Assembly (NCBI RefSeq): GCF_954871325.1
Contig: NC_088776.1
Coordinates: 10,540,052 to 10,604,051 of the forward strand
Length of the DNA: 64,000 bases
From: Gordionus sp. m RMFG-2023
Taxonomy: Eukaryota; Nematomorpha; Gordioida; Chordodea; Parachordodidae
Reading direction: 5' to 3'
Part shown: positions 17,101-62,478 of the stretch, one piece after another
Layout: every line of letters starts with the position of its first letter
Position numbering within the stretch: the first letter of the stretch is position 1
Notes under the pieces: generated by a model
The model's input: only the letters and a program-made list of their open reading frames with translations
Told to the model about the DNA's origin: nothing
Databases searched by the model: none
Made by a program: the position numbers and the translations under genes

Positions 17101-20100
17101 TGAAATTCTTAGCCTTTGCAGGCTTGATATTTATACAAATATACTATTTTTTAGACAATTATTATTAGTTTTTTTTTTTAAAAATTGATAAAAATCTATT
17201 CCAAGCTTTCTTCGACAAGGTTGTGGGGGAATGGGACGGGGTTAAAAGCGTTACCAGATATTGGATAGGAATAATATATATTAGATAAATAAAATTTAGT
17301 TGTTTTGTTATTAAAGAAATTATGTTTTCCCAAAAATAATTTAAAAATGGACAAGTATGTCAGTTTGAGATGGAACATTTAAGGACGTTTGCCAGTAAAA
17401 AAATATATTCCAGGTATGGGAGAGTCTATATCATTTAAAATTTAAACAAATTATAACAAATTGAACAAAGAGGAATTTTTTAAAATCCTAAGACAATAAC
17501 GAATAGAAACATAGTCCCTAATTTGCTAAAAACTCCTACCGACATATATCCCTTTTTTCGAAAAAAAATGCTTTAAACACTCAAGGATATCTCTTCTACT
17601 ACAGATAAAACTGAAGGCGATGAATTGGTAGCATTTTTGATTGACAGGAATAAAACCCCTCATCCCGAAACGAGCATTTCCGTAAGTCAACCCTATTCTA
17701 TGGTTGGGCTTAAAGGCTTCAACGGTATAAAATGTTATATTTGCTTAATTATTTTTTTTTTTAAAAATACAATAACAAATATATTTTACATGCGTTGAAA
17801 AAAAATGTCAATTTTCTTTGTTGTGTTGATTGCGTTTTTTTTCTTTCTTCAAACGATCGCTAAATTGTGCGCTGTAATCGCGTAAGACGATATCTGACTA
17901 CTAGGAATTACGAAAAAGAAAAGGGAAGAAAGAAAATTATAAGGTGTTAAATTACTAATGAACTTAATTAATTCTTATATAAATTTTTTAAAAATCTGGT
18001 CATCTTATTGTAGGATATATTTGTTTAAAATTTAGAGGATTTACCTTAATTTACATATATGAAATTTTAAATTAGTAATATTTGACAAACAATATATAGC
18101 CTTTCTTGGTATTCGATAATAATATCTCTAAATAAAAGGAAACGATTAGAATGTAGAATTTTATCTCGTAAGGTATCATTTTTTTTATAGTCAAAACAAT
18201 CGGTTACTTTATTTTAAATTGTTTCCTATATATATAGTATTTTATAATTATGTCATTTAACTTCTAATAATATGCAATTACATTGCCCTCCATAAGATAA
18301 TATTAAATGTAGGAAAGTTATAATAATATAATATACAAATAACGTCCTTTTAAAATATATAACGTAACCTTTAAAATATATAGATACTCAAATATAACAT
18401 ATCTTCTTTCCCACTAAGTTAAGATCGTCTATCAATCTTTTTATTTACCAAGTTCAAGTTTATCTATTAATCATTTTGTTGCTTTCGTTCCCTTGTTGGA
18501 TATCGCGTTTGCCTTCCTTTTTGACTTGGCTCTACTGTTTTAGCTTCTCCTAACTTTGTTATGTTTGATTTGGTTTCAACTGGTTCTTCCCTTATTCGTA
18601 GTTGGTCTGCGTGTTTTCGTACTATTTTATCTTTTTCTTCTACGTTATACGAGAATTTTGCTTGTTGATTTATTATTTTTCCTTCTTGCCATCCTTTTTC
18701 AAGTGGGTTTTTTATCCAAACTAATTCGTTTTCTCCAAAATATCTATGTAGACCTTTGTTTAACTGGTCGTGTTTTACTACAGAGGTTTCTAATTTTTCA
18801 GTAATTAAAGGTTTCACCCAGTCTAATAAAGTATTTAGTCTTCTCCCCATAAATAGTTTGACAGGTATTCGGCCCGTTGAGGAGTGTTCGGAATTTCTAT
18901 ATGCAACTAATACTTCATTTAGGCATTTTTCCCCATCATTTGTTTGTTCTCTATTTGCAAAATACCGATTTTTGATAGTTTGTTTGCATCTTTCTATCCG
19001 TTACTTCTCGGATGGTAGGGTGTAGTTTTTATATGTTGTATATTCTTATTTTTGCACCATTTATAAAATTCATTTGAAATGAATTGTGGACCATTGTCTG
19101 TGACAATTTGACGTGGAACAACATATCGGGTAAGCCATTTTTCTAATCTATTTATTAAATTTTTACTTGTGGTATCTTTGATTCTATCGATCTCTATCCA
19201 TTTTGAATATGCATCGATTCCTACCAGCCAATAAAATCCGTCTAGTGATCCGGCAAAATCTAAATGTACCCTTTCCCATGGTTGTGCTGGCGGATTCCAC
19301 GGGTATACGGCAACTTCTGGTATATCTCTGCGATGTTTATGACACCCAATACAGCGGTTGACTAATTTTTCGACATCTTTATCTAATTTTTCCCACCATA
19401 TATAATGTCTCGTAATGGATTTCATTGATGATACCGGGATGACCTGTAATTCTTTATATAGTTTGTCAATATTCACGTTACCCTTATCATTATATTTATA
19501 TTATTGTTGATCATATTGATTTTTACATTTATGGGTAACGATAAGTCAAATTCTATAAACCACGGAAATCCAAATATAACTTACACCTCGAACTTTACAA
19601 GATGCTGAAAAGAATTATTCGACAATCGACAAAGAAGTCAAAGCCATAATAAACGGCGTAGAAAAATTTCATAACTATTTGTATGGGCGAAAATTACGAA
19701 TGGACCACAAACCTTTAATAAAAATATATGGTGATAACAGAGATTTAAACTCCTTAACAAACCAATGATTATTACGTTGGGCTTATAAATTATTGGCATA
19801 TGATTATCATATAATGTACAAAAATGGCGACGAAATTAAAAAAAATAAAAATAAGTCGCGCAGTTTTCGGTCCTCGGTCAAGTTTAATAATATATAGAAT
19901 TATAAAAATTTTTTGTTTATAAAAAAGAATAATATATTTTAGAAATAATAGTTTTACAGGATTTTAAAAAAGAAGATTGTTCCATCGATGACTACATTGA
20001 TTATATAAAATACATACTGAATGTGAAAAATATTCCTCAAACTGACGCCACTTTAAAACAAATTATTTATAGCTTATGGTGGAATAAACATTATCTTTCT

Positions 20101-23100
20101 TTCTTTTTTTCTTTCTCAAAAAATTACTCTATCCTTAGGACAATGGAGGAGGTAGGATGAATTGACATATACAAAATTGCTAAACAACTGTATAAAGATG
20201 AAAGAACTGTTTTGGCATCTAGAATTGATTTCATTAGATTAAGTCGCGGGCCTACTGAATCCGTAATGAGCTATTTAAAAAATATAAAGGAGCTAGCCCG
20301 AAGATGCGAATTTGATGAAAATGTAGAACTAAGAATTCGTGATCAATTAATTGCCGGACTAAAGATGTCACAACTAGATAAAGAACTATGTTTAAGATAC
20401 CCAGATACTAAAGACGAAGACCAACCGTTAAGCTTAAACAAAGTTGTAGAATTGGCTTTAGCGATGGTGGAACGGGCTGACTTAGAAATAAATAATACTA
20501 CTAAAATGGTATATAAAATCAAAGAGACGAATAAACATAATGATAATAATAATCGGATAATTCAACATGATAAAAATAATCGGTAGTATAATAATGATAA
20601 TGATAAACGGCACTATAATAAAGCATATGTAAAAAGAGAACTAGTGCCAGGGTATAATAACAACCACACAAATAATAATAATTCGAGAAAACCATGCTAT
20701 TTCTGTAATCGGTTTCATGCTATTAGAAATTGTTTAGCCTACGGAAAATTGTGCAGCAAATGTAGAAAACCAAACCACTTCGCCGTTAGTTGTAAAACTA
20801 AAGAAAAAATTTACAGTACAAATTACAATAATAAGGACGACGATTCGGATGTCTCAATAAGAAAAATATACAAATATGGACAACATCCAACAATTGAGGT
20901 ATTAATAAACAACCAAAAAATTAAAATGGAATATGATGCGGGCTCGGCAGTAACCATTATTAATGTAATAATATGGAATAAAATTGGAAGGCCAAAACTT
21001 AGAAGGGCTAAGTCACCAACTACATATGGAAATAATAGAATAAAAATTATGGGCGAAGCTTATGTAAAAGTACAATTAGATGATAAAATATGGTTTTCGT
21101 TATTAGTCACAAAAATTAATGATGCAGCCCTATTTGGATTTTCATGGATTATAGAATTTGACTTATCGTTACCAACAATTGTAAAAATCAATATGATCAA
21201 CAATAGATATAAATATAATGATAATGGTAACGTGAATATTTACAAACTATATAAAGAATTTGCTACGGTGTTTAATAATAAATTAGGATTAATAAAAAAA
21301 TGTCTAACCAGTAAAACTACAATTGGAAGAAAATACAAAACCAATTGCACTGCCAGCTAGAAGAGTACCATAGCCTTTAAAATTAGAAATTGAAAATGAA
21401 CTGAAACGTTTGGAAGAAAATAATATAATAAAGAAAATAGATCCATCAACAACAAGAGTAACAAAACTTCAGGTGAACTACGATTATGTGGAGATTTCAA
21501 AGTAACATTAAATAAATATCTACTAAAAGACTATCACATTCTATCAACGTTTGAAGAATTAATCCAAAGACCGCTAATGGAAATAAATATACAACATTAG
21601 ATCTCAAAGACACATATCTACAAATGAGCATTGACGAAGAATCGCAAGAATTATTAACAATGGTAACACCAAATGAATACTACCGCTATTTACGATTACA
21701 TTTTGGTATAGCTACAGCACCAATAATATTTCAACGATATATGGACGATTTACTGGCTGATGTAAAGATACAGCAGTTTATTTAGATGATGTTATAATCA
21801 CAGGGAAAAATGATACTGAACATATACAAAATATAAAACAAGTCCTCAAAAAATTACAAAATGCGGGATTAAAAGTCAAAACAATCGGTTACTTTATTTT
21901 AGTTTCCTATATATATATACGACATACAGCGAAGTGGTTTGGTTTCCTACATTTGCTGCACAATTTTCCGTAGGCTATACAATTTCTAATAACATGAAAC
22001 CGATTATAGAAATAGCATGATTTTCTCGAATTATTATTATTATTTGTGTGGTAGTTATTATACCCTGGCACTAGTTCTCTTTTTACATATGCTTTAGTAT
22101 CCTTTTGATAGTGCCGTTTTTCATTATCATTATTATTATACTGCCGATTATTTTTATCATATTGATTTATCCGATTATTATTATCTTATGTTTATTCGTC
22201 TCTTTGATTTTATATACCATTTTAATAGTACTATTTATTTCTAAGTCAGCCCGTTCCATCGCTAAAGCCAACTCTACAACTTTGTTTAAGCTTAACGGTT
22301 GGTCTTCGTCTTTAGTATCTGGGTATCTTAAACGTAGTTCTTTATCTAGTTGTGACATCTTTAGTCCGGCGATTAATTGATCACGAATTCTTAGTTCTAC
22401 ATTATCTTCAAATTCGCATCTTCGGACTAGCTCCTTTATATTTTTTAAATAGCTCATTACGGATTCAGTAGGCCCGCGATCTAATGAAATCAATTCTAGA
22501 TGCCAAAACAGTTCTTTCATCTTTATACAGTTGTTTAGCAATTTTGTATATGTCTTTTCCAGATTTGATCATCCAGTAGAGTTGGTATCCGACAATGGAC
22601 CAGCTTTTAGGCCTTTTGATTTTAAAATCTTTTTAATAAAAAAAGGTATAACACATATTTGTACTCCTGCATACCATCCTTCTTCAAATGGTATGGCTGA
22701 ACCATCCTTCTTCAAATGGTATGGCTGAAAGAGCGGTACATCTGAAAAAATATGATATATAAATTAGATGGCTGGGGTGATAGGTTATTAGAAGATGTTT
22801 TATTAAATTATCGTAATACCACACATTCGGTAACTAAATCATCCCATTTTTTTATATTATTTGGAAGGGATTTGATATGGAAGTGGAGTTTTTTAAAAGA
22901 CAATGACTGCGATTGTAGACCTAAATTGAAAAGAATAAATTTTAGAGAGTTAACTTTAGGCAACTCTGTGTTTGTAAAGGTGGGCAACAATCAAAAGTGG
23001 CGTGTAGGGATTGTCAGTGGGAGAATTAGTAATGTCATATGGGAGATTCAGATAGATAATAAAATAGTTATTGTCCACATAGATCAAATTAGAGGTTTTT

Positions 23101-43109: not shown

Positions 43110-45580
43110 ATGGCAACTATAGGATCATCTTACCATCACGATATAGTTATTCCAGTGGAAAAAAATATTCATGAAAATCCTGGAGAGCGTTCAGAATCCA
43201 GGTTAAATTTTAATTAACCATGTGATTTTTTTTAGAAGAGAACTGAGGGGGGGGGGTGTTTCTTAAAGTCTACTGGCTCAAGTAATGATTGGTAGAGGAA
43301 TTACCACATCCCACTTTTAATAAAAATAATAAATTTTGATTAAATAGAAAATAAAGAACCTTTTTATTATAATTCGATTATAGGTAATTAATTTGTGATA
43401 GTATCATAATACGAAATAATTAAGTGATTATTCTTTATTCCAAATGAGAATAGTAGATAGCACGAATTTTATTAATTGCACTTATGAGGTAAAAGCTTTT
43501 GTTTGTATTTTCGATCTTCGATGAGTGCCAAAGTAAGTTAGCCAGAAGAATATTTGGCAGATTTAATTCATTCTGTGTCGACAATAACAACAACATGGTT
43601 TAGGTTGTAGGGTGAGAGTTAATTGGCTTGCTTTAAATTTTTTTTTTCTGATATTTTAATTTGGCAAGAAAATATAATTTTATCAGTTTTTTAAACCACT
43701 TCCTCATCGATTGGGGTCAATTCACGTCACTATAAAATTTGTATCTGGTTTTGGATAAGCCTCATTGAACACGAAAATTTTTTTAACCCATCTTTAACCA
43801 ACAAAGCAGCTTAGCCAAGTTTTATATTTCAAAAAATTTGTCTTAATATTTAAGTCAAGGCTCTATTTTAGAGGTATAACTTCTAGCTTATCCATAGCCA
43901 AAGTTAGGAAAATTAACAACACAAATTTTTTTAATATATTTTCTTATCAATAAGTATTGCGAATTTTGTCTTTTTTTTAAATTGCTATTTTTCCAATGAT
44001 CAATCAAGCCTTATTTTTTTTACTCTTTTTAAAAAAAAATATGATTATCTTCTTGCGTCACTTTTTTGTTCACCTAAATAGTTTTTAATTAATGGCAGCA
44101 AGAGATAAATATAACACAATATTCTATTTCAAACAGTAATCATATCATGTTACAATTTATTTATATTTAAAAAATTAAATATTATAGCGAAAAATTCAAA
44201 GAAGAAATGAGGAAAATGGAAGAAGAGATGGAAAGAGTCAAGAAAGACTTATTAGCTAATACTAGTTCTGCCAGTGGTTCTTCTCCTGATAATAAAACCT
44301 TGCAACAATCCCATTCCACCAAATTACACTCTTACCAAAAAACAACTAAGACCGAATCCAAAAAGGTTACCAAAGAAGGTGGTGGTGGTACCCCTTACAC
44401 TATACAAACCACCTCTACCAGCCATCAACCATCTCATACCATCAATATAGAATCTTCCAATATATCCGATGATATTCCACGTTCTAGCAAGACGATAGTA
44501 AAAGAAATTTACCCAGAGCGATCAGGAAATGAAGAGATATACAGAGCTAATATAAGCCCCGGAGCCACTATAACGATAAAGGCGACTTCTAGGGAAGGCA
44601 CACCCATCAGGAAAGTGGTAATCGTTCAAGAGAATGACAAAATCAACGATAGTGGTGTTAGCACCAGCTTCCAACCAACTTATCATTCTTCCCCCAACCC
44701 CAAAGAGCACACCATCAGAGTAGATAGGCATATAGACCAACACGAGGTTCCTCTTGGTAAGCGAGAAGAGTCTAAAAGCGAAAAGAAGGAATTCACCACT
44801 TCCACTAACGTGACCGGAAACGAGAATTCCACTCGACAAGAAACCATAAAGAGGGAAGAAAAAAGAATTTCCTCTTCATTCAGTTCTACGTCTAATCTCT
44901 CCAACCCATCTTCCGAGTCTTCTAATATTACGCAAGATAAGAAAAATTTAGATTCTTCCTCTTTCGATATGGATAAGCTAAAAATTGATGATAAAGACGC
45001 CAAGGTTTTTTTTCTTCTAATAATATTTTTTTATCATTCATTTTTAAGGGTTCTCGCTCATCTTTTTTAAAAAATATTATGAATAGCCGTCTGATTGATG
45101 TTTTCTAGACTTAAAAAAATAATAGGAATCACACTTAACACATTTTTAAGACTCTAATGTCAAAATTGATATTTAAAGAAAAATCGATGTCTAGGCTGAT
45201 TTTCTACCCAGAATAAGAGCTTATTTCGTTGAGTATTCCATCATTTTTTCCCCCTTTACAAATTCTCATGATTTTTTGATTAAATTCTAACACTAAAATA
45301 ACAGGTAATCGAAACGGATCACTCCACCGGTATAAGGCATCTCAAATTGCGTTATGAGATTAGTTCCAGAGATTATGAACCTCAGGATATAAACGTTAGG
45401 GTCACTAAAGATAAAGTTTTTATTAAAGCCGAACACAAAGAGACAACAGCTGGCAAGTCTGTTTGGAGAGAATGCAGCAAGGAATTTTCGCTTCCTGATG
45501 GAGCGAATATTGATTCCATTAGATCTTCCTTCAATCCCGATTTGGGAATCCTGACGATTGACGTACCCTTATTCAAATAG
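43110..45580 (+). CDS. Small heat shock protein (alpha-crystallin), CG14207/HSP-25 type, 394 aa
   Basis: Three exons: 43110-43201, 44188-45004 and 45305-45580 (TAG). Phases agree and both introns are GT-AG. Exon 1 (MATIGSSYHHDIVIPVEK) plus the start of exon 2 (EKFKEEMRKMEEEMERVKKD) match the N-terminal helix of Drosophila CG14207 and C. elegans HSP-25. Residues about 55-300 are a Ser/Thr/Lys-rich, probably disordered stretch absent from the ~180-aa fly protein. The alpha-crystallin domain fills exon 3 (HLKLRYEISSRDYEP, then VRVTKDKVFIKAEHKE, EFSLPDGANIDSIRSS, GILTIDVPL). The usual C-terminal I-x-I tail is missing; the protein ends right after the domain. Such proteins are ATP-independent cytosolic chaperones forming oligomers. 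The ATG at 43110 is chosen because it opens the frame and gives the conserved N-terminus. Confidence 0.92.
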
Positions 45581-49482: not shown

Positions 49483-52400
49483 CTAAAACTAAATAATCAT
49501 TCAACATTAGCATACAATGCAGTATCAAATTTAATGTACACATTTTTATACAAGAAAAATCATCAAAAATATTCATTTGAGTATTTTTAGATATAAAAAA
49601 ATGCATCTTAAGAATTTTCAATAGTATTATTTATTTCAAAAAAATTTGATCTGGGTCAGTCTAAAATTGTAATAGTTAGAAAAAAAATGTAGAGGATATT
49701 TGCTAAAGTGCGACTACCACCCTTTAACTTTTTATCTATTGAACCAATTTCTCTCAAAATTAGTGAAATGAGAAAGTATTGAAATAAATATATTTTAGCA
49801 TGTTTTCATAAAATTTATAAATATATAGAAGATGAGTGGTTAATTTAAAGAATGTTTAACATAGATAATAAATTAAGATATTATCATTAAATTGATGAGT
49901 CAGATGATAAAATGAAATGTTAACATTTATTGTAATTTTTAATTTATAATATAATTTTTGAATAATATCTTATGGCCAGTTGAAACATACCATGTTTAAA
50001 CTGGGCCAGAAAATCAACTTTCACATAAACTCATCTAGTTCAAAAACTATTATATTGCTGATATATTATATTTTTAAATGTTTCCTCGTTGAAGTTACTA
50101 GTCTTGTTTGATGATAAAACCTTCTGGCACATCTCAGATCTCACAATGAAATTTGTACCCTTGTATTAATTTTTTTTATCGAGATAAAAATATTTTGCGA
50201 ATTCAGGAAAATAAAATTCCTATTATCGTCATTTTCTAAGGGAATTACTTTGTCGATATGCTCTGTACCATAATTATCTTCAATATTAATCTCTATCGTC
50301 TTTTAAATTGTAAATTATTTTGAAAACTAGATTTATAATGCAGATTTATTAAATAAAATTGAAAGTAGCGAAGTAGTACGGTTAAATTAGTAGCGAGCTA
50401 CCTCTATTTTTTTTCAAAAAAAGTTGAGCGCTTAAGCTACTACTACTGAAAAAAGTAGAGCGCTATAGTAGCGTGCTACTTTAACAAACACTGGAAGTCT
50501 AGAGATAACAAACTTTATATGTAATGGCACATTTCAAGCTCGAAGGTCTAAAATAAATAAAATTTGACTTTTTTAAAAAAATCTAACCTTTCGCAAACCA
50601 TAAGTTATTAGTTTTCGATAATACACCTAAAATGGAGTCTTTATATACAAAATATTACCTTATCACACAAAAAATGTGCATGTTATCAATATAATCACAT
50701 GATAAATCTAATGGCATACCCACTTTTCGTAATCTTTATGAGTCGTTTTTTAAAGCATAAAACAGTGGATCATTTTATTATTTCAGGCTATTAGAAAACC
50801 TTTTTAAAAATATGTTAGTTACATCATGTTTAACTAAATACTTGGTTAAAAATGCATTTATTATTATAACAGTGATTCATGCAAAATATATTCAGTATTC
50901 ACCAATAATTTATTATTAAAATAATTTTGCATCGTTATTCGATTATATTAATGCCCTAGCCGAAATGTTAATTTTAAAAAAAAATTAAAAAAGTGTTCAA
51001 TAAGTAAACATAACAATAACATGATTGCGAATATATATAACAATATATTGATTACCATTGGCTAAATAAATTTTTTAGCATGATACATTTAAATTCATAA
51101 TCAATCGCATGTAACCCGTATATATTCCATTATTTTTTTACATCACATATGATCAAATTTGTTAAAACATAATAATTTATGCGTATTATTTATAATTTTT
51201 TTTAAAAAACAGTTTACATTAGAGATCAAGCGATTAAAAATATTTATGAGAAAATATAAAAATATTTAAAAGAATTAAAATAATAAAAAAATTTAATTTT
51301 TTCATTCAAAATAGAGAAATAGAATAACTGCGACCACTGACATTATGTAGAGCACTCGTTTGGGGTTCAGTCACAAGCCATTCATACCATACGGAATACT
51401 TATTTTTGCATCTCCACATGTATAAGCATATTGTGTCATTGATTTTAATTGGCAAAGGATTCTTTTAAAATGTTATAATTCGTTATGAAAAAAGTATGGG
51501 ATAAACATTTCCATTCAAAATTTTGATTATCTTTTTGCCCGTTTTGTAATTTTATTTTACTCCTTTAAAATGTACTAAAGAAATAAGTAGCCTTAATAAT
51601 AAATACTTATAACATTATGTTTTTTAATGTAAATAAATAATATTTATGGTTTTTAAGTGTTGTAAAAATCAATAAAAAACAGGCTAAATAGGGATTTTAG
51701 CCAAGATAATATTAAATAGCAATGAGATTTCTCCCAAAGAGGGCCTTGTCATTAAATATAGTTTAAAAATGATTAAATTATTTTTTCCATCTAGTTCGCG
51801 TAGAACCTATAAAAATAGGTTCAGTGAATAATTCTATAAGTTTTTTTATAAAGTTAAAAGTACATTTACCTTGATGGGGAAATATATCGGGAACCAACTA
51901 AACATATTTTCTGTATGTCTTTCGGGTAATGTGCCTTATTTCCCGTATAAATATGATTATTTAAAATGGGTCAAAAATTAATTTAGATAATAAAATTGGA
52001 TAATTAAAATGGGTAAATATAAAGAAGAAAATATTGAAAAAACAAAATGATAAGAGGATGAAGGTAAACCGCAAGTTGTTACATAAAATATATAACATGC
52101 ATATAGCATTTATTCTTAATATCTAAATTATATGCTGATTTCTGATTGGTGCATATTTATCTTAACATATAAATTATATAATAATTTTTAGAAAGTATCT
52201 AAACAGATCAGTATCCATTTATTACCCAACTTCATATATATTCGATAATTTAAAATTTTTTATTTTATGCATTTTGAAATTCCGATAAAAAATAGTCAAT
52301 TTAAGCCAAATATTTTTATTTTATATTATAGTATATAATATTCAAAAATAAAATATAAAAGCGCTTAATAAATTAGGCCCATTTATACGGTAATTAATAA

Positions 52401-53730: not shown

Positions 53731-56700
53731 CGTTTGTAATGGTAACGGATTTTTCAATTAAGAGATATAATTATTTTGATTTTGGAAATTATTAGATTGA
53801 ACGGCCTATAATAGTTTCCTTTGATAATTGTAGTGTTGACATTGATAAGAATTTACTTTGATTTGACCTAGTGTTATTAAAAAGTCCGATTTGGGTTGAT
53901 TTTTAATAATGACCAGGATATTAGCCAAAATAATATCATAAGCCTCAAGATTTGGCAAATAGAGGTCAAAATCTTTCTCCCATCTATGGGCAAAATCTCC
54001 AGGACACATAATATTATTTTGGCTAAAATCTTAATTGGGCCCTTTTTAAAAATCGACCTAAATCGGGCTTTTTAACAACACTAATATGACCCTAGAAAAT
54101 ATATAGGAACTTGATATCGTTGATTTGTACATAAGTTTATTCTCTCCTTGGCTTTCTTTTAGTGTAGTATTATTTAATATGAATGGCTCTCTTAAGAAAT
54201 CTCAGAATAATAATAAATTTCTCCCTTTTAATTTGCTAACCCGCTAAAAATAATATAATAAAATAGGGTAAACAAATGTTACATAATAATACTTATTTAT
54301 ATATTTAAAATTCTGTCTTATTTACAATCTTGGTATCTTAGTCTAACTAACTTTGTAGTAAATTATATTATGGATATACTTAAAGTAACGTGTCCATAAA
54401 GCACCGCTTCAAAATACCCCGCAAACCCGTGCAATAAACAATCTATCTTAGCCTTTTCGAATACTAACGATACGTTTTTTATTTCATCTTCATCTTGATT
54501 AACGAGATCCAAATCCTCCTTTAAATCGCAAAAAGCGTTACCAGTCATTTTTTTAGCAGATGGAATATTATCATCGTTTGGATGAGTAAATGTAAAAACG
54601 GGTAGGGAAGGAGCTATAAGCATTCCTTTGACTATGTTGACCACAAAAGGCATTTCGAAGTGGGAAAAGGTAAAGGATTTCTTGTAATAACGTAAGAATT
54701 TAATTATTTAAATATGGTGAGAGGGGGGAGGGAGTACAAAAACTTAATATGGCACAAGAAAGGTATAATTACTTATTGTAATGATTATGCTAATTTGTAT
54801 TTTGGTTAAAATAGTTTTGTTTTATAAATAATTATTATACATGCAAATTGTTTATTTTGGGAGAATAATATGTGGTAAAAGAAATAATGACAGACGATAT
54901 TTAGTTTTGAATATTCATATTTTGTGAAAGAAATAATAATTATCCAGACGATTGTTAATTTTGGGTAAAATTTAAATAAGTTAATTGTATATAAAAGGGA
55001 AATTTGATTATACTAATATTTTAATTGTGTTTTTTATATACTTATATTTTTATACCTATTCAGTGTCGTAGCTATGAATTTTCCTTAGAGGGGGCCCATA
55101 TATATAAAAGCCTGGGGGGCTTCGCCCCCAGATCAGCCTATAACGGGACTTCGGCGTTTTTGCCCGGCGTTCAGCCAGGTTTATCTAAAAATCATATTTG
55201 TTTATCTTATAATATAAAAGTCCTAGAATTATTGATCATTTTAATTAGTGTTGTTAAACGGCTCGATTGCTCAAGCCTAGAAATTTCACGAATGTCTAAA
55301 CCTTTGTATCATCCATAAGCAAAATTTTCAGGCTTGCATAATTCTCTGGCTAATATTGAGTTAGCCATATCGGCTCAAATTGAGCCATTAACAACACTAA
55401 TTTTAATAAAAATAACATATTTCGACATAACATTTTTGATATACGTTTCAATTTACTATACTTTTATAGAAATCAATTTACAAATAAAAAGCGATTATTT
55501 AAAATATAAATATTATATTAGTGATCTGCATCGAGCCTAATTTTTCAAGCCCAGCAGAGCCCGAAATTTTTTTAAAAAAAGTTTTGCCGGCCTGGCCGGA
55601 ACCTGAAATTTTTTAAAAGTTTTGCTGGCCCGGCCCGGCCCGAAATTATTTAAATATAGAAATTAATTTTTATAATTACTCAAAATAAAAGAGATATGTT
55701 ATATGTCGTTTAGTTACAATAAATAAAATCAAATATTTTTATTTTACATAAAAAATTAAATATAAAATTGATAAATTTAGATATATTTAAAAAAATTATA
55801 AGGGCCGACCCGACCCGGCCTGAATTTTTTAAAAAAATATTAGGCCCGGCCCGAACCCAATTATTTTAGATAGATTTATGCCCAAGCCCTCTATATATTG
55901 CTTTAATTATAAATATTATATTGCCTTAATTATAAATTATATACTTTATAACTATTAGTGTTACACATATAAATTGCTGATTATAAATGATATATTTTAT
56001 AATTAGTAGTATTATATAATACATTTAAATTATAGATTAAAATATTATAAATGTTATATACCATTGTAAAACAATTTATAAATAACAAAATATAATTTTA
56101 TGTAAACTAAACAAATTTATAATAATAAAGTGCTTATTTGGAAAAATATTTCGATTGCTTTTGATTAAAAAAAACTATAAGTACTATGTTAAAAACTTTA
56201 TATTTTATATATTTAACTTAATTCTTAGTGGCCCTTTAGCCATTTCCTCTAAGACCTCATTTGGGGTAGGATTAAGATCTCTATATATATTCAGAAGAGC
56301 TAATCCATTGGTCCTCGCCCTGGCCAGAGGTTGCCCTTAAATAACCTTTAAGTCGAGTCAATGTCGAAAATGACCGCTCATTGGTGCAAGTAGTTATGGG
56401 AAGTGTTGCTAATATTATTAAAAGTGTTTTGATATTTGTTCTTAAGTTTAAAGTTTCCTTAAATAATTGTAATGCCTCAACAGGGTTGCTGGGACGCTCT
56501 TTAGGGATGGTGCTTAGATCAGAATACCAAGCTTCAGTATCTGACTTTAGCTGTTCGTATCCTCCGATAATGTCTGATTCATAAAAAATACTAATTTTTT
56601 TAATGCTAAGCATTATATTATTGTTAATAATTAATTGTTCTGAGGATGATGGCAAAAGAAAATTAAAATATTTTAATATTTTGCTATGCCCATCAAATTT

Positions 56701-59700
56701 TAATTTAAAGTGAGTAATAATTGTTTTTAATAATTGTAAAAATATAACTTTTTTATAATAATCAAAAGTTGATTCTAAGGCTAACATGTCACCTATGATT
56801 AGCCTAGGTTACTCAATAGTAGGGATGATGGTGCTTAGATCAGAATACCAAGCTTCAGTATCTGATTTTAGCTGTTCGTATCCCGATAATGTCTGATTTT
56901 AAACATCTATGGTAAAAAAATGTTAGTGGCATTTACCTCAGCATCTTCAAATATTTTAAGAAGCCTCTTGGCTTAATTCATTGCCTCCACAGTTGATATT
57001 TTCCCTTTGAAGATATCGACTTAAATTTACACTTTAAAAAAAAATTCATTGTATCTTTATTATTTTCAAAGCTTCAACTAGGTCTTCCAATGCTTTAAGA
57101 AAGCCATTATTGAATCTTGTCTTTGAAGAAATCTTGTAGGCGAATATTTTTTTAATTTTTGAACTTTGGATCCATCTATATCTTTTAAAACATCATACAA
57201 CACCTTTGATCGCTTCCCAAAACTTAAAAATTCAATTATTTTGGATAGGATTTCTATGAAATAAAGATTGTAAAAATTATGTGAATAATTATTTACTTAA
57301 ACTATTATCAATCTCACGATTTCCACAAGCTTTGGGGATAACTAATTTAAAAGCAAAAGGGGCCACAAATAATCGTAAATATTTACAAATTATTATACAA
57401 GTCATCATTTACTTGGGAAGGCAGGGAATGCTGTAAGAGGCCACAGAGAAAAGAGTGGTAAATTGGATTATAACGAGACTTCATTTAATGAGGGTAACTT
57501 TAAAGAGTTGCTCAAATCATATTGTCATCTAGGTGGTGATGAAGCCAAGATCATATTTGACAATGTGGCTAATAATGCCCTATATATATCTCTTGATATA
57601 CCAAATACAATTATAAACATATGTAATAATTTTATTGTTGAAAAATTAGTTAAAATTGTTAATAAATCTGTCTTTTTCTCTGTAGTTGTAGATGAAACAA
57701 CCAATATATCAAATCAACAACAGACGTTGTTTTGGTTATCCGAATATTAAACTTGGACACCATAAAAATTAGTGGATTTTTTTTGCAATTTATTCCACTT
57801 GATAAGGGTACAGGAGAAAATATAGCCAAACAAATCATATCTTTTAAAAAAAAACAATAATATTGATATAACTAAAATTCAGGGCCAAGGATATGATGGT
57901 GCTCCAGCAATGTCTGGAAAAATTAATGGGGTTCAGGCCTATATAAAAAAAGTGCCCAAAAGCTCACTATGTACATTGTGGAGAACATTCTCATCTCCAA
58001 AGCTTGTGGAATTCGTGAGATTGATAATTGTTTAAGTAAATAGTTATTCACATAATTTATACAATCTTTATTTCATAAAAATCGTATCCAAAATAATTAA
58101 ATTTTTAAGTTTTGGGAAGAGATCAAAGGTGTTGTATGATGTTTTAAAAGATATAGATGGATCCAAAGTTCAAAAATTAAAAAAAAATTCGCCTATAAGA
58201 TTTCTTCAAAGACAAGATTCAATTACTGGCTTTCTTAAAGCATTGGAAGGCATAGTTGAAACTTTGAAAATGATAAGTAGATGGAATGATAAAGATACAC
58301 CTAATATTGCACAAGAATTGTGTTTATGAATTTACTAAACCCCCTTTATTATATCAATTTTTTGTATGAATTATATATTTTTTTAAACTGTAAATTTAAG
58401 TTGATATCTTCAAAGAGAAAATATCAACATTATGGAGGCAATGAATGAAGCCAAGAGGCTTCTCAAAATATTTAAAGATGCTGAGGTAAATGCTAGCAAC
58501 ATTGTTTTACCAATATATGATAGATGTTTAAGTTTGGAAGAGAAATTTAAAATTACTATTGAGAAACCTAGGCTAATCATAGATGGCATGTTAGTCTTGG
58601 AATCAACTTTTGATTATTATAAAAAAGTTATTTTTTACAATTATAAAAACAATTATTACTCACTTTAAATTAAAATTTGTTAGGCATAGCAAAATATTAA
58701 AATATTTTAATTTTCTTTTGCCATCATCCTCAGAACAATTAATTATTAACAATAATATAATGCTTAGCATTAAAAAAATTAAAATTTTTTATGAATCCAA
58801 CATTATCAGAAGATAGGAACAGCTAAAATCAGATACTGAAGCTTGGTATTCTGATCTAAGCACCATCATCCATACAGAGCGTCCCAGAAACCCTGTTGAG
58901 GCATTACAATTATTTAAGAAAACTTTAAACTTAAGAACAAATATCAAAACACTTTTAATAATATTAGCAACACTTTCCATAACTACTTGCACCAATGAGC
59001 GATCATTTTCGACATTGACTTGACTTAAAAGTTATTTAAGGGCAACCTCTGGCCAGGGCGAGGACCAATGGATTGGCTCGTCTGAATATATATAGAGATC
59101 TTAATCCTACCCCAAATGAGGTCATAGAGGAAATAGCTAAAGGGCCACTAAGAATTAAGTTAAATATAAAGTATTTCAACAAAGTATTTATAGTTTTTTT
59201 TAATAAAAAGCAATCGAAATTTTCAAATAAGCACTTATTATTATAAATTTGTTTAGTTTACATAAAATTAAGTATATATAACATTTATAATATTTTAATC
59301 TATAATTTAAATGTGTTATATAATACTACTAATTATAAAATATATTATATATAATTAAAGCTATTTATATCATTTATAATCAGCAATTTATATGTGTAAT
59401 ACTAATAGTTATAAAGTATATAATTTATAATTAAGGCAATATAATATTTATTTTATAATTAAAGCGATATAATATTTATATTTTAAATAATCGCTTTTTA
59501 TTTGTAAATTGATTTCTATAAAAGTATAATAAATTGAAACGTATATCTATAAAAGTTATGTCGAAATGTGTTATTTTAATTAAAATTAGTGTTGTTAATG
59601 GCTCAATATGAGCCGATATGGCTAACTTATGCAAGCCTGAAAATTTTGCTCATGGATGATACAAAGGTTTAGACATTATTCGTGAAATCTCTAGGCTTGT

Positions 59701-62478
59701 GCAATATTTTTTTGGCTAAAATATTGAGTTGTTTATAAAAATCGGCTCAAATCGAGCCGTTTAACAACACTAATTAAAATGATCAATAATTCTAGGACTT
59801 TTATATTATAAGTAAAACAAATATCAAAAGATCTGAAGGCCTGTTAAAGGGGGGTCTGGGGGCGACGCCCCTCAGGCTTTTATATGTATGGACCCTCGCT
59901 AAGGAAAATTCCTAACTACGCCACCGTTCAATAGTAATATAATATCCTTCCACAAACATCAAAACCAAAAAAATATAAATATTCATGGTATTTATTTTAT
60001 ATAAAATGACTATTGAGTTTTTTGAACGTATAATCTTTAAAAATTGCTCTGGAGGGGGGGGGTCAAACCCAAACCCCCCTCCGTAGCTACGACACTGTAC
60101 CTATTGAATAAAATAATTCCTAACTTTGATACACACGATTCAAAATTACTATTATTACACAATCAATTGTAGAAGGGCGCTTAATCAAAGCCATTTACAT
60201 AATATTTAAGTTTAATGAGTAGAGTGTTTTTTAAGGAAACTCCTAACTATCAAAATGAAATAAATTCTTAATCATTCTAATATTTACTAATAAAATAGTC
60301 GACACAAGGATTTCATCTAATAAGACATTCATGAATTTTTATTAAACATTTAAAGAAAGAAATAATTAAAATTGATTAGATAAGATCAAGTTCAATCAAT
60401 GCAACAACCCCCCTCCCCCACCATGCCTTATTTAAAAATTTAAATTGTTGGGTCTCATGGTTATGGAGTGGTGGTAAACATGTGATACCACTACTATATT
60501 GGGAAAAAGTAGATTTTTTTGAAAATAAATCGTATATTTCAATATTCTATTCATGAAATTACAGTTAGTAATAACAAATTTTTATATTTTACCTTATCTG
60601 AAACGTCTAACTTCTCGTAATTATTAACTTCCGAATGCAATTTTTGAGCCATGAGTGGAGCAATATGAGACGTATAACTTTGGGGGATACAAATACCGCC
60701 CTCTATTATGTTTGTATAAATATAAAATTTGAATTGTATTTTGAGAAGGCACCAAGCTTTAACAAAACAAATTGGTTATTAATTTTAAGGAACAACCTTG
60801 GCAATTTTATTTTATAACAGCCGGTTCTTATTGAATTTATCCTTCGTTATTTGAGAAGAAAGGCATTACTTATATTCAATTCTTTCTCGATTGCTTAAAA
60901 TCCTCCATTCATTCCTTTTTAAAAAAATTCAATTTTGTTATAGTCAAATGATTATTTTAATCTTCTTAATCCTTTTGTGCTTATTTTATATAAACATAAA
61001 AAATTGGAAAACTCAACCAATAATATGTGTTGGATCTTGTTGAATCATCTTAATTGTAGGGGCCCTGTACAAGGCATTTTTTCGTTCAGCCGGATGCAGG
61101 TAAGGGGATTAAAACATTTTTAACTATTTGGTTGGAATTTCGTTAACTTCTCGATCTAAAAATACACCGGTTATAAATGATTTTCCAAAAAAATCCGGTT
61201 TAATCCATGTTTGTTAAGTGCCCAATCAATACAATTAAAAAAATTTAAGGCTCAAACAGAACCGCCTTAAAATATATTGTTGTCTATTGACAACCTTTCC
61301 AAGCCCGTTCTCTTAAGATCAAAAATGTGTAGTGTCTGTTAATACCTCCAGATTTTTATATTCAAAACTTTTCAAGAAGTCGGAATATTTTATAAGAACT
61401 CCAGAAGGTTATGGGTCAGTCATGTATTCCGAATAATTTTTAAAATTATGCTGCCATTAGTATATCTGAAGGACCACTCTGCTTATGCACTTTATTTATG
61501 CTTGCCAATATAATCTGCGAAAAACCCTCATGATTTCTTGAGCCCAAACCATATTTAAAAATGTAAGGTTCAGAAAATAAGAATTCTTTAAATATTTATT
61601 TTAATAATTTAAAAAAAAAAGTTTCAGGAAATTCATAACCAAACGCAAACTCTGTTTTTAAGGACGGTTCATAGCCCTTAATATAAGATTGGTTGTTTTA
61701 TGGGTATTCTTAAGAGATAGCCTATTTTTTAAAATACTTTTTAAATATTTTTGCACTCCGTATAAGCATTCTGGAGAGAGCTCATTATCGCCGAAAGAAC
61801 CCAATAATTCGCTTACCATGACGTCGATCATACCTAACAAATTTCCATCAAATGATTTATCAATAGTTCTGGCATCGCCTTGTAAAAGTATCACCGTCCC
61901 TTTCGGCCAAGCGCCAGAGAGTTGTTTTTGTTGCAAACTTTTAAAATAAATCATTTAAAAAAAACTATTATATATTTTTTAATTGTAAATAAGATAGAAA
62001 AATTATTATATCATGTTGTTCACCATTTAAAACTAAAAGGGTTTTTTTCGACAGCTATTACTTCAATCTTTCTGTTAGATCTTTGGGCTGCATTAATAGA
62101 AGCGGTTATCAAAGGTCCCCTTCCTGCGCCCACCACCATTATAATCCTAGTAAGTAAAAAATCAGCAATTAATATCGAATCCTTGGTATTTTTTTAAAAA
62201 ATATATAAATTGAAAGAGAAATAAATCTAAAATATCACAAAGTGAGGTTTCGAAATTGGAAAAAAACTTGAAAATAATTATGCAAGGTAATATTGAGACA
62301 AAATGAATTTTTTACTAAAATTGATAAAAATACAAAATCATATCAAAAAGAAACCATCAAATTAACAACAAATATTAGAAATATTTCAATAAAATAATTA
62401 AAATAATTCGCTATACGTTTTATGATCTGGTTTTTCGTTATTGCTAGGAGCGACATCTAAAAGACAATTGTATATTGC
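53340..62478 (-). CDS. PRMT5: Protein arginine methyltransferase PRMT5, 3' part (multi-exon)
   Basis: Supported - strand exons are 62478-62417 (AIYNCLLD), 62146-62024, 61937-61738, 60702-60593 and 54680-54380, then probable C-terminal exons in 53730-53340. All junction phases fit and introns are GT-AG. The SAM-binding loop VVGAGRGPL and acidic VEKN lie in the second exon. [16 protein letters not shown], with both Glu of the double-E loop, is in the third. [20 protein letters not shown] is in the fourth. The fifth has [14 protein letters not shown] and [19 protein letters not shown], which belong to the beta-barrel. The enzyme makes symmetric dimethylarginine on histones and Sm proteins, normally with WD-repeat partner MEP50. 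Exons for the N-terminal TIM barrel were not found in 62479-64000 and probably lie beyond the window. Confidence 0.92.
53869..54083. repeat. Fold-back MITE, TAGTGTTG family (near the PRMT5 3' end)
   Basis: Starts tagtgttattaaaaagtccg and ends ggctttttaacaacacta. Inner dyad: aagcctcaagatttggca / gggcaaaatctccagg. It probably lies in a PRMT5 intron. Confidence 0.85.
55246..55399. repeat. Fold-back MITE nested in the left palindrome arm
   Basis: Starts tagtgttgttaaacggctcg and ends attgagccattaacaacacta (family TAGTGTTG), internally shortened relative to its partner at 59587-59772. Because both arms hold it, the MITE entered before the inverted duplication. Confidence 0.85.
56281..57280 (-). 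pseudogene. hAT transposase, C-terminal part in the left arm
   Basis: The 168-codon open stretch 56787-56281 reads [38 protein letters not shown] and [14 protein letters not shown], the DUF4371/ZMYM-like hAT dimerisation region (cysteine, E-R-S-F-S block). Further upstream pieces (57280-56900) are interrupted. This copy is more open than the right-arm copy. Confidence 0.8.
57463..59095 (+). pseudogene. hAT transposase relic, N- to C-terminal in centre and right arm
   Basis: Segments in order are 57463-57750 ([18 protein letters not shown], then [17 protein letters not shown], the catalytic-Asp region VDETTDxxxxEQ), about 57880-57990 ([18 protein letters not shown], the second catalytic-Asp region), 58129-58329 ([14 protein letters not shown]), 58432-58668 and a C-terminal region to 59095 with NERSFSTLT. 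There are at least four interruptions, so it is inactive. Confidence 0.8.
57990..59931. repeat. Right arm of the hAT palindrome
   Basis: Inverted counterpart of 55061-57340. It ends at a complete internal 3' terminus (cctaactacgccaccg) that abuts the 5' terminal segment 59932-60097. Confidence 0.88.
59587..59772. repeat. Fold-back MITE nested in the right palindrome arm
   Basis: Starts tagtgttgttaatggctcaa and ends gagccgtttaacaacacta. Inner dyad: caagcctgaaaattttgctc / gtgaaatctctaggcttgtg. Confidence 0.88.
60106..60592. other. Rest of the PRMT5 intron
   Basis: AT-rich intron sequence between the hAT target site and the donor of exon 60702-60593; nothing else recognised. Confidence 0.5.
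60703..61737. other. PRMT5 intron between the double-E-loop exon and the IPQSYTSH exon
   Basis: About 1.0 kb, moderately AT-rich, GT-AG ends. No element ends or coding blocks recognised inside. Confidence 0.5.

Follow-up and report, generated by a model that had tools for sequence, protein, structure and literature searches.

A hAT element holding an inverted second copy of its family in an intron of PRMT5 of Gordionus sp. m RMFG-2023: a probable nested insertion followed by loss of the centre

The window analysed here, a stretch of 64,000 nt from contig NC_088776.1 of Gordionus sp. m RMFG-2023 (positions 10,540,052-10,604,051; C2:10540052-10604051), contains a hAT element (A, 55061-60097) whose 5' end is separated from its 3' half by an inverted second copy of the same family (B), which has a complete 3' terminus and lacks its 5' part. 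The most probable history of this locus, to which we assign a probability of about 0.75, is that B inserted in inverted orientation into A within an intron of PRMT5, and that the centre of the resulting structure was then deleted. Events of this kind are ordinary transposon accidents. The locus would be a legible trace of one hAT element having moved into a related one, tolerated in an intron.

Structure of the element

Element 55061-60097 is flanked by a perfect 8-bp duplication, tacctatt, the left TSD of the host element A (55053-55060) being identical to the right one (60098-60105), which confirms the single enclosing TSD proposed in an earlier note on this DNA. Within these limits lie two 3' ends, both facing outward, and a single 5' end. 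The outer termini, at 55061 and, as reverse complement, at 60097, have the same 14 bp (CAGTGTCGTAGCTA), and the second, inner 3' terminus is found at 59926 (..CTACGCCACCG|TTCAATAG). The three termini and head-to-head arms described in that note were confirmed by terminus comparison, self-comparison and arm alignment; its positions 55061 and 60097 stand, and the third is corrected from 59931 to 59926, as the former figure runs 5 bases into host sequence. At position 6 of the TIR both A termini carry T (CAGTGTCG), and elsewhere G was found in 28 of 33 cases, A in 5 and T in none (matches to CAGTGNCGTAGCT in the fetched loci, possibly overlapping); the T common to 55061 and 60097 indicates that both ends belong to one element. 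Alignment to family copies places the 3' half of A at 55061-57342 on the minus strand, with its 3' terminus and TIR (CAGTGTCGTAGCTA) at 55061 and its inner end within the junction at 57343-57351, and the 5' end of A (hereafter E5), also on the minus strand, occupies 59927-60097, its 5' terminus at 60097, as judged from the E5 matches that start at 59927 and from the common TIR variant. B, the second family copy, extends over 57352-59926 on the plus strand and is collinear with the longer copies L031-L033.

The inverted arms (approximately 55063-57339 and 57993-59924) showed up in the self-comparison as successive ungapped pairs with 81-100% complementarity, separated by an unpaired spacer of B sequence with no counterpart in A (57352-57992, between the arm ends at 57339 and 57993). 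In a global alignment from end to end, 1646 of 1786 aligned positions match (92.2%), with many indels, a value that takes in badly aligned edges of insertions; the anchored comparison gives 94.5% (1660 sites). This likeness is far beyond chance. A gap in the arm alignment corresponds to an insertion of about 380 bp, rich in GGCCCGGCCCG, that is found in arm A (55519-55895, ends approximate) and is absent from arm B.

Two minor features were also seen in the arms. A 57-bp patch of arm A (56506-56562 / 56827-56883) recurs 321 bp away with 98% identity, and B reads differently at this place; template switching may have left this trace. Both arms (55238-55407 and 59579-59780) also contain a small palindromic repeat, with ends TAGTGTTGTTAA, and a similar piece is present in the left flank (54010-54085); the repeat has the look of a miniature element nested in the hAT family and carried along with it.

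On the minus strand, Pfam searches detected PF05185 at 62023-62193 and 61661-61954 (E 3.1e-16 for the latter, a stretch with a PRMT5 exon), and PF17286 at 54366-54707 (E 4.5e-14), which lies downstream of the element and holds a PRMT5 C-terminal exon, and at 51309-51464. Both stretches searched against PDB (61661-61954 and 54366-54707) matched PRMT5 chains. Upstream of the element, the translation revealed a further exon-like stretch on the minus strand (60554-60700, ends approximate) beginning IPQSYTSH at 60688, which we take to be part of PRMT5 from its similarity to PRMT5-type motifs. As PRMT5 domains or exon-like stretches lie on both sides, element 55061-60097 lies in an intron of the minus-strand PRMT5 gene, and the position inside PRMT5 claimed earlier is borne out by the Pfam PRMT5 and PRMT5_C matches on either side and by the PDB chains. 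PRMT5 is usually an essential gene. The transposase remnant of A has the same orientation as PRMT5.

That remnant is an open stretch (56284-56808, minus strand) matching the hAT C-terminal dimerisation region (PF05699, E 6.1e-05, 23.2 bits for a cut-off of 21.4), and B contains a DUF4371-like transposase stretch (57379-57747, plus strand; PF14291, E 3.2e-06) whose 27.6 bits fall below the Pfam cut-off of 32.1. No Pfam match was obtained for two other short B stretches, among them 58817-59020, which corresponds to the dimerisation region of A. The locus presents an 8-bp TSD, short TIRs (CAGTGTCGTAGCTA, at both A ends) and, in arm A, the C-terminal dimerisation region, all of them hAT features, and A and B appear to be copies of one hAT family of the DUF4371 / hAT-dimerisation type. 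Perfect 8-bp TSDs were found elsewhere in the family at L031 (AAGTTGAG), L036 (AATAAAGT), L040 (CTCATAGG), L042 (TGTATAAT) and L047 (AGAACCAC), and also at the short copies L054 (GATTCATA) and L056 (CTCTATAG). Read by eye, L043 and L044 each have 7 of 8 TSD bases in common between their two flanks and L045 has 6 of 8; the flanks of L039 and those of the small element of L032 do not match. Short copies and derivatives with internal deletions share the sequences of both ends, 5' (E5) and 3', with the PRMT5 locus; the simple copies L047, L054 and L056 have one 5' and one 3' end only, in contrast to the extra 3' end at PRMT5. The family is large, and as the best 40 of 1108 candidates were scored in the E5 search and the best 40 of 3866 in the element B search of the 287-Mb genome, family counts are lower bounds. 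The reading frames in element 55061-60097 are broken, and what is left at the locus is probably inert.

The outer and inner junctions

At the outer junction (59926/59927), the sequence CTATTGAA|ATTATTCTGG of A is split exactly by the complete 3' terminus of B, so that CTATTGAA (59934-59927, minus strand) directly abuts the terminal base of the B 3' end. In other copies the 5' end continues uninterrupted through CTATTGAA into ATTATTCTGG or a close variant; CTATTGAA is exact in 11 of the 15 contexts listed, L043 has TTATTGAA, and the remaining three diverge (two at L045, one at L053). E5 was found at 39 other places, all starting at 59927, among the 68 matches listed (best 40 of 1108 candidates). 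The outer junction is therefore a transposon terminus within host sequence that is continuous elsewhere, as transposition leaves, and for this reason a nested insertion is favoured over a duplicated half. The 8 bases at 59927-59934 (TTCAATAG, or CTATTGAA as read in A) would be the presumed single surviving copy of the B TSD, whose second copy is absent. A 28-base pattern across this junction, searched in the whole genome with up to 3 mismatches, was found only at the PRMT5 locus, which answers the proposal of the earlier note to look for other copies with the same junction. Of the 28 rows for the 3' end in the matches listed, 21 do not extend beyond the junction, and the other 7 overrun it by 1-17 bases. 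Two of the overrunning rows, L054 and L056, proved to be short copies, each bounded by its own TSD, and inspection of a third, L055, did not locate its 3' end. Five of the seven (L055 and four others) remain unexplained and count against a nested insertion, as does the changed second base of the B terminus (CGGTG).

Comparison of the inner junction (57343-57351) with L031 and L047 revealed a microhomology of 7-9 bp joining two family positions, AAATTTA according to L047 and AAATTTAAA according to L031, with small differences in the window. The B side corresponds to CAAATTTAAATGC in L031, and the A side to CTAAATTTAGAG in L047 and CTAAATTTAAAG in L031, the two meeting at AAATTTA(AA). Upstream of the B counterpart L031 reads ..CTATCAAATTTAAATGCAAAAGGGGCC; the A-side region, in the plus-strand reading of the window, is GATAACTAAATTTAAAGAATG in L031 and GATAACTAAATTTAGAGAATG in L047, and the window itself reads GATAACTAATTTAAAAGCAAAAGGGGCC from 57337. 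Missing from the locus are the 5' part of B, about 2.4 kb as estimated from the L031 5' region and E5, and the A sequence from position 171 to mid-transposase; neither a second CTATTGAA nor the B 5' part is found at the inner junction. This junction, too, occurs only at the PRMT5 locus in a whole-genome search (29-base pattern, up to 3 mismatches), and it looks like a microhomology deletion.

In the history that we propose, A would have entered the PRMT5 intron, generating the TSD tacctatt. B, at that time still full length, would have entered A in the opposite orientation at CTATTGAA, 171 bp inside the A 5' end, yielding a large head-to-head palindrome. Microhomology end-joining would then have removed the palindrome centre, comprising the B 5' part with the second TSD copy and A up to mid-transposase, so that arms of about 2 kb now enclose a loop of 0.65 kb. 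The single enclosing TSD would then be that of A, the second copy of the B TSD having been lost with the B 5' end. Two further observations count against this history: the insertion can be read from one side only, the other end of B and its second TSD being absent, and 9 of the 20 fetched loci contain inverted segments, several with non-terminal junctions.

Relationship between A and B

A and B are mutual best matches among 17 other rows, with 94.5% identity over 1660 sites, and the margin of B is narrow (94.4% with L038); by identity, A-B ranks 20 among 153 pairs. In a tree that left out L037 and L042 (coverage <35%) as well as L043, L048 and L049, A and B were joined with a UFBoot of 90, on a shared branch of 0.0045 compared to private branches of 0.032 and 0.025. 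Identity between the two was 93.6%, 95.7% and 97.1% in the three regions compared. In the first two, A has equally close relatives among the other copies (L045, 94.0%; L031, 96.7%), and A and B are mutual nearest neighbours in the third (1990-2300; 97.1%). Derived sites shared exclusively by A and B numbered 2 in 480, 0 in 510 and 0 in 310 columns. In the first region L030 and L039 share 13 such sites and L031 and L032 share 9; as L041 and B also share 2 there, the two exclusive A-B sites are at background level. An AU test of 5000 resamplings, a number flagged by the program as too few for AU, rejected neither the tree that places A with L045 (p-AU 0.17) nor the one that places A with L041 (p-AU 0.065).

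From these comparisons, a sister relationship of A and B is at most weakly supported, and the arms separated early, near the radiation of the family. B may be a sister copy that jumped into A, or merely a related one. A recent duplication of the A 3' half in place was rejected, as the arms are diverged by about 5.5%, near the level of other copies. The grouping of A and B (UFBoot 90) counts against the nested insertion insofar as it is also expected from a duplication in one event, and so does their closeness in region 1990-2300.

Alternative origins of the locus

Aberrant transposition would have used ends on sister chromatids, or ends of two copies, to join the B 3' end to the A interior with loss of the rest in a single episode. 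This is a one-step variant of the nested insertion, with odds that overlap those of the latter, and can be likened to the half-double Ds of maize; as a separate route we consider it possible, if doubtful. The exact terminus on one side only and the lack of a second TSD copy would be explained by it, and a comparable case is offered by L032, where exact 3' and 5' termini have non-matching flanks (ATCTATCA, CTTTCACT) and the far end carries a third (AGTACGAG). However, the microhomology at the inner junction suggests ordinary end joining, and the one-step and two-step routes give the same product, which makes them inseparable here. We find it unlikely that template switching during abortive gap repair, after excision of A, copied the 3' half of A or of a sister back in inverted orientation: such a process would have no reason to hit the terminal base of the 3' TIR, where the outer junction falls, and the A-B divergence (about 5.5%) is near that of other copies, although the weak sister grouping of A and B, the frequency of inverted segments (9 of 20 fetched copies) and the 57-bp patch in arm A, 98% identical to a stretch 321 bp off, all speak in its favour. 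Other rearrangements such as template switching do occur in this hAT family.

That the palindrome formed elsewhere and moved as a unit into PRMT5 is compatible with the single enclosing TSD and the matching outer termini, but each junction occurs once in the genome, and we judge this origin improbable even considering that cut-and-paste movement could leave no donor copy. Palindromes are hard to assemble, and a chimeric or fold-back join is a further alternative; we hold it to be very improbable, because a fold-back or collapsed artefact would give near-identical arms and these differ by about 8% with many indels, the window is free of any N, and at the outer ends both the TSD and the TIRs agree. 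The earlier note had described the locus as an element with its 3' half duplicated head-to-head; the head-to-head arrangement holds, and the arms are better read as two copies, the outer junction being an exact terminus. Its two suggestions for the palindrome, that it was already present at insertion or was duplicated in place, fare less well, given the absence of a second genome copy of either junction for the former and, for a recent in-place copy, the divergence of about 5.5%.

Inverted duplications in the family

Inverted segments of the same family were present in 9 of the 20 fetched loci (L031, L032, L033, L034, L036, L037, L039, L040 and L045), a sample picked mainly from the best-ranked B matches and in which short inverted matches of low identity (L035, L038) were left uncounted. 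One inverted-duplication junction, where position 1981 of B is joined to reversed 1630, was found at at least six places, the query included, among the best 40 of 43 candidates (C1:14865989, C39:5147, C2:31391743, C1:4577802, C122:25410 and C1:19744721). In L031 (C1:14863500-14870500) the inverted duplication lies at L031:2128-2555. L031 and L040, which share the 1981/1630 junction, have perfect TSDs at different sites, indicating that the inverted duplication was carried along when the element transposed. The duplicated sequence is part of a 277-aa transposase open stretch, and the copies with this junction form, together with L036, a clade with support 100.

Two other arrangements were observed among the fetched loci. 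At L039:2027-6041 a further pair lies head to head, with two 3' ends and with arms that are 96.3% alike; its flanks do not match, and a search for a 5' end found none. At L032:4664-5044, with L051, there is a small complete-looking copy with exact termini, flanked by ATCTATCA and CTTTCACT, the far end of the longer element having AGTACGAG; aberrant transposition is a possible origin for it.

Comparison with known systems

A double Ds is a hAT element copy inserted in inverted orientation within another copy, and the geometry of a 5' and a 3' end facing the same way makes it break chromosomes. The PRMT5 locus is like the double Ds of maize (hAT, Ac/Ds) in its 8-bp TSD and in having 5' and 3' ends with the same facing, those of A and B respectively, 171 bp apart. 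An inverted copy lies inside another family copy, as can be read on one side only, where its 3' terminus falls precisely at 59926 within host sequence that is continuous elsewhere. The locus differs from double Ds in that the inner copy has neither its 5' part nor a second TSD copy (the second CTATTGAA is absent), and also in that the copies are about 5.5% apart. By analogy, given an active transposase, the A 5' and B 3' ends would have the chromosome-breaking arrangement of double Ds. A published study (PMC3260210) describes nesting as rarer for Ds types, probably since nested Ds gain chromosome-breaking properties, and mentions that double Ds able to break chromosomes were not detected in B73.

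Mu killer, from the Mutator system of maize, is like the PRMT5 locus in being a partial inverted duplication of a transposase gene, and has been proposed as a source of hairpin RNA. At PRMT5 the inverted transposase duplication has arms of about 2 kb that are 92% alike, the potential stem contains 23 perfect runs of at least 21 bp, the longest of 99 bp, and an intronic PRMT5 transcript of the palindrome could fold into a hairpin. Mu killer differs in its superfamily, in that both its ends are of one kind (TIRA), and in its measured silencing of MuDR (PMC3440606); the same paper argues against a read-through hairpin model for Mu killer. It would be a long shot that a hAT subset with a built-in inverted transposase duplication spread as mobile self-targeting hairpins, and that the PRMT5 palindrome is a second, independent hairpin locus supplying small RNAs against the family; if true, this would be a transposing analogue of Mu killer, transcribed at PRMT5 with an essential gene.

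A literature search of open-licence PMC papers found, in the titles and abstracts listed, no prior report of the PRMT5 locus or of this hAT family. Together with the junction found at at least six places, the PRMT5 locus offers a natural case for how inverted duplications arise in cut-and-paste transposons, and the family is a good case for asking whether they feed RNA silencing.

Other features of the window

Elsewhere in the window, retroelement-like ORFs were seen by eye at 18467-22568, integrase-like on the minus strand and gag-like on both strands, perhaps an inverted pair of retroelements. A small heat-shock protein stretch is present at 45302-45577, its best PDB match being 2bol (E 4.7e-05).
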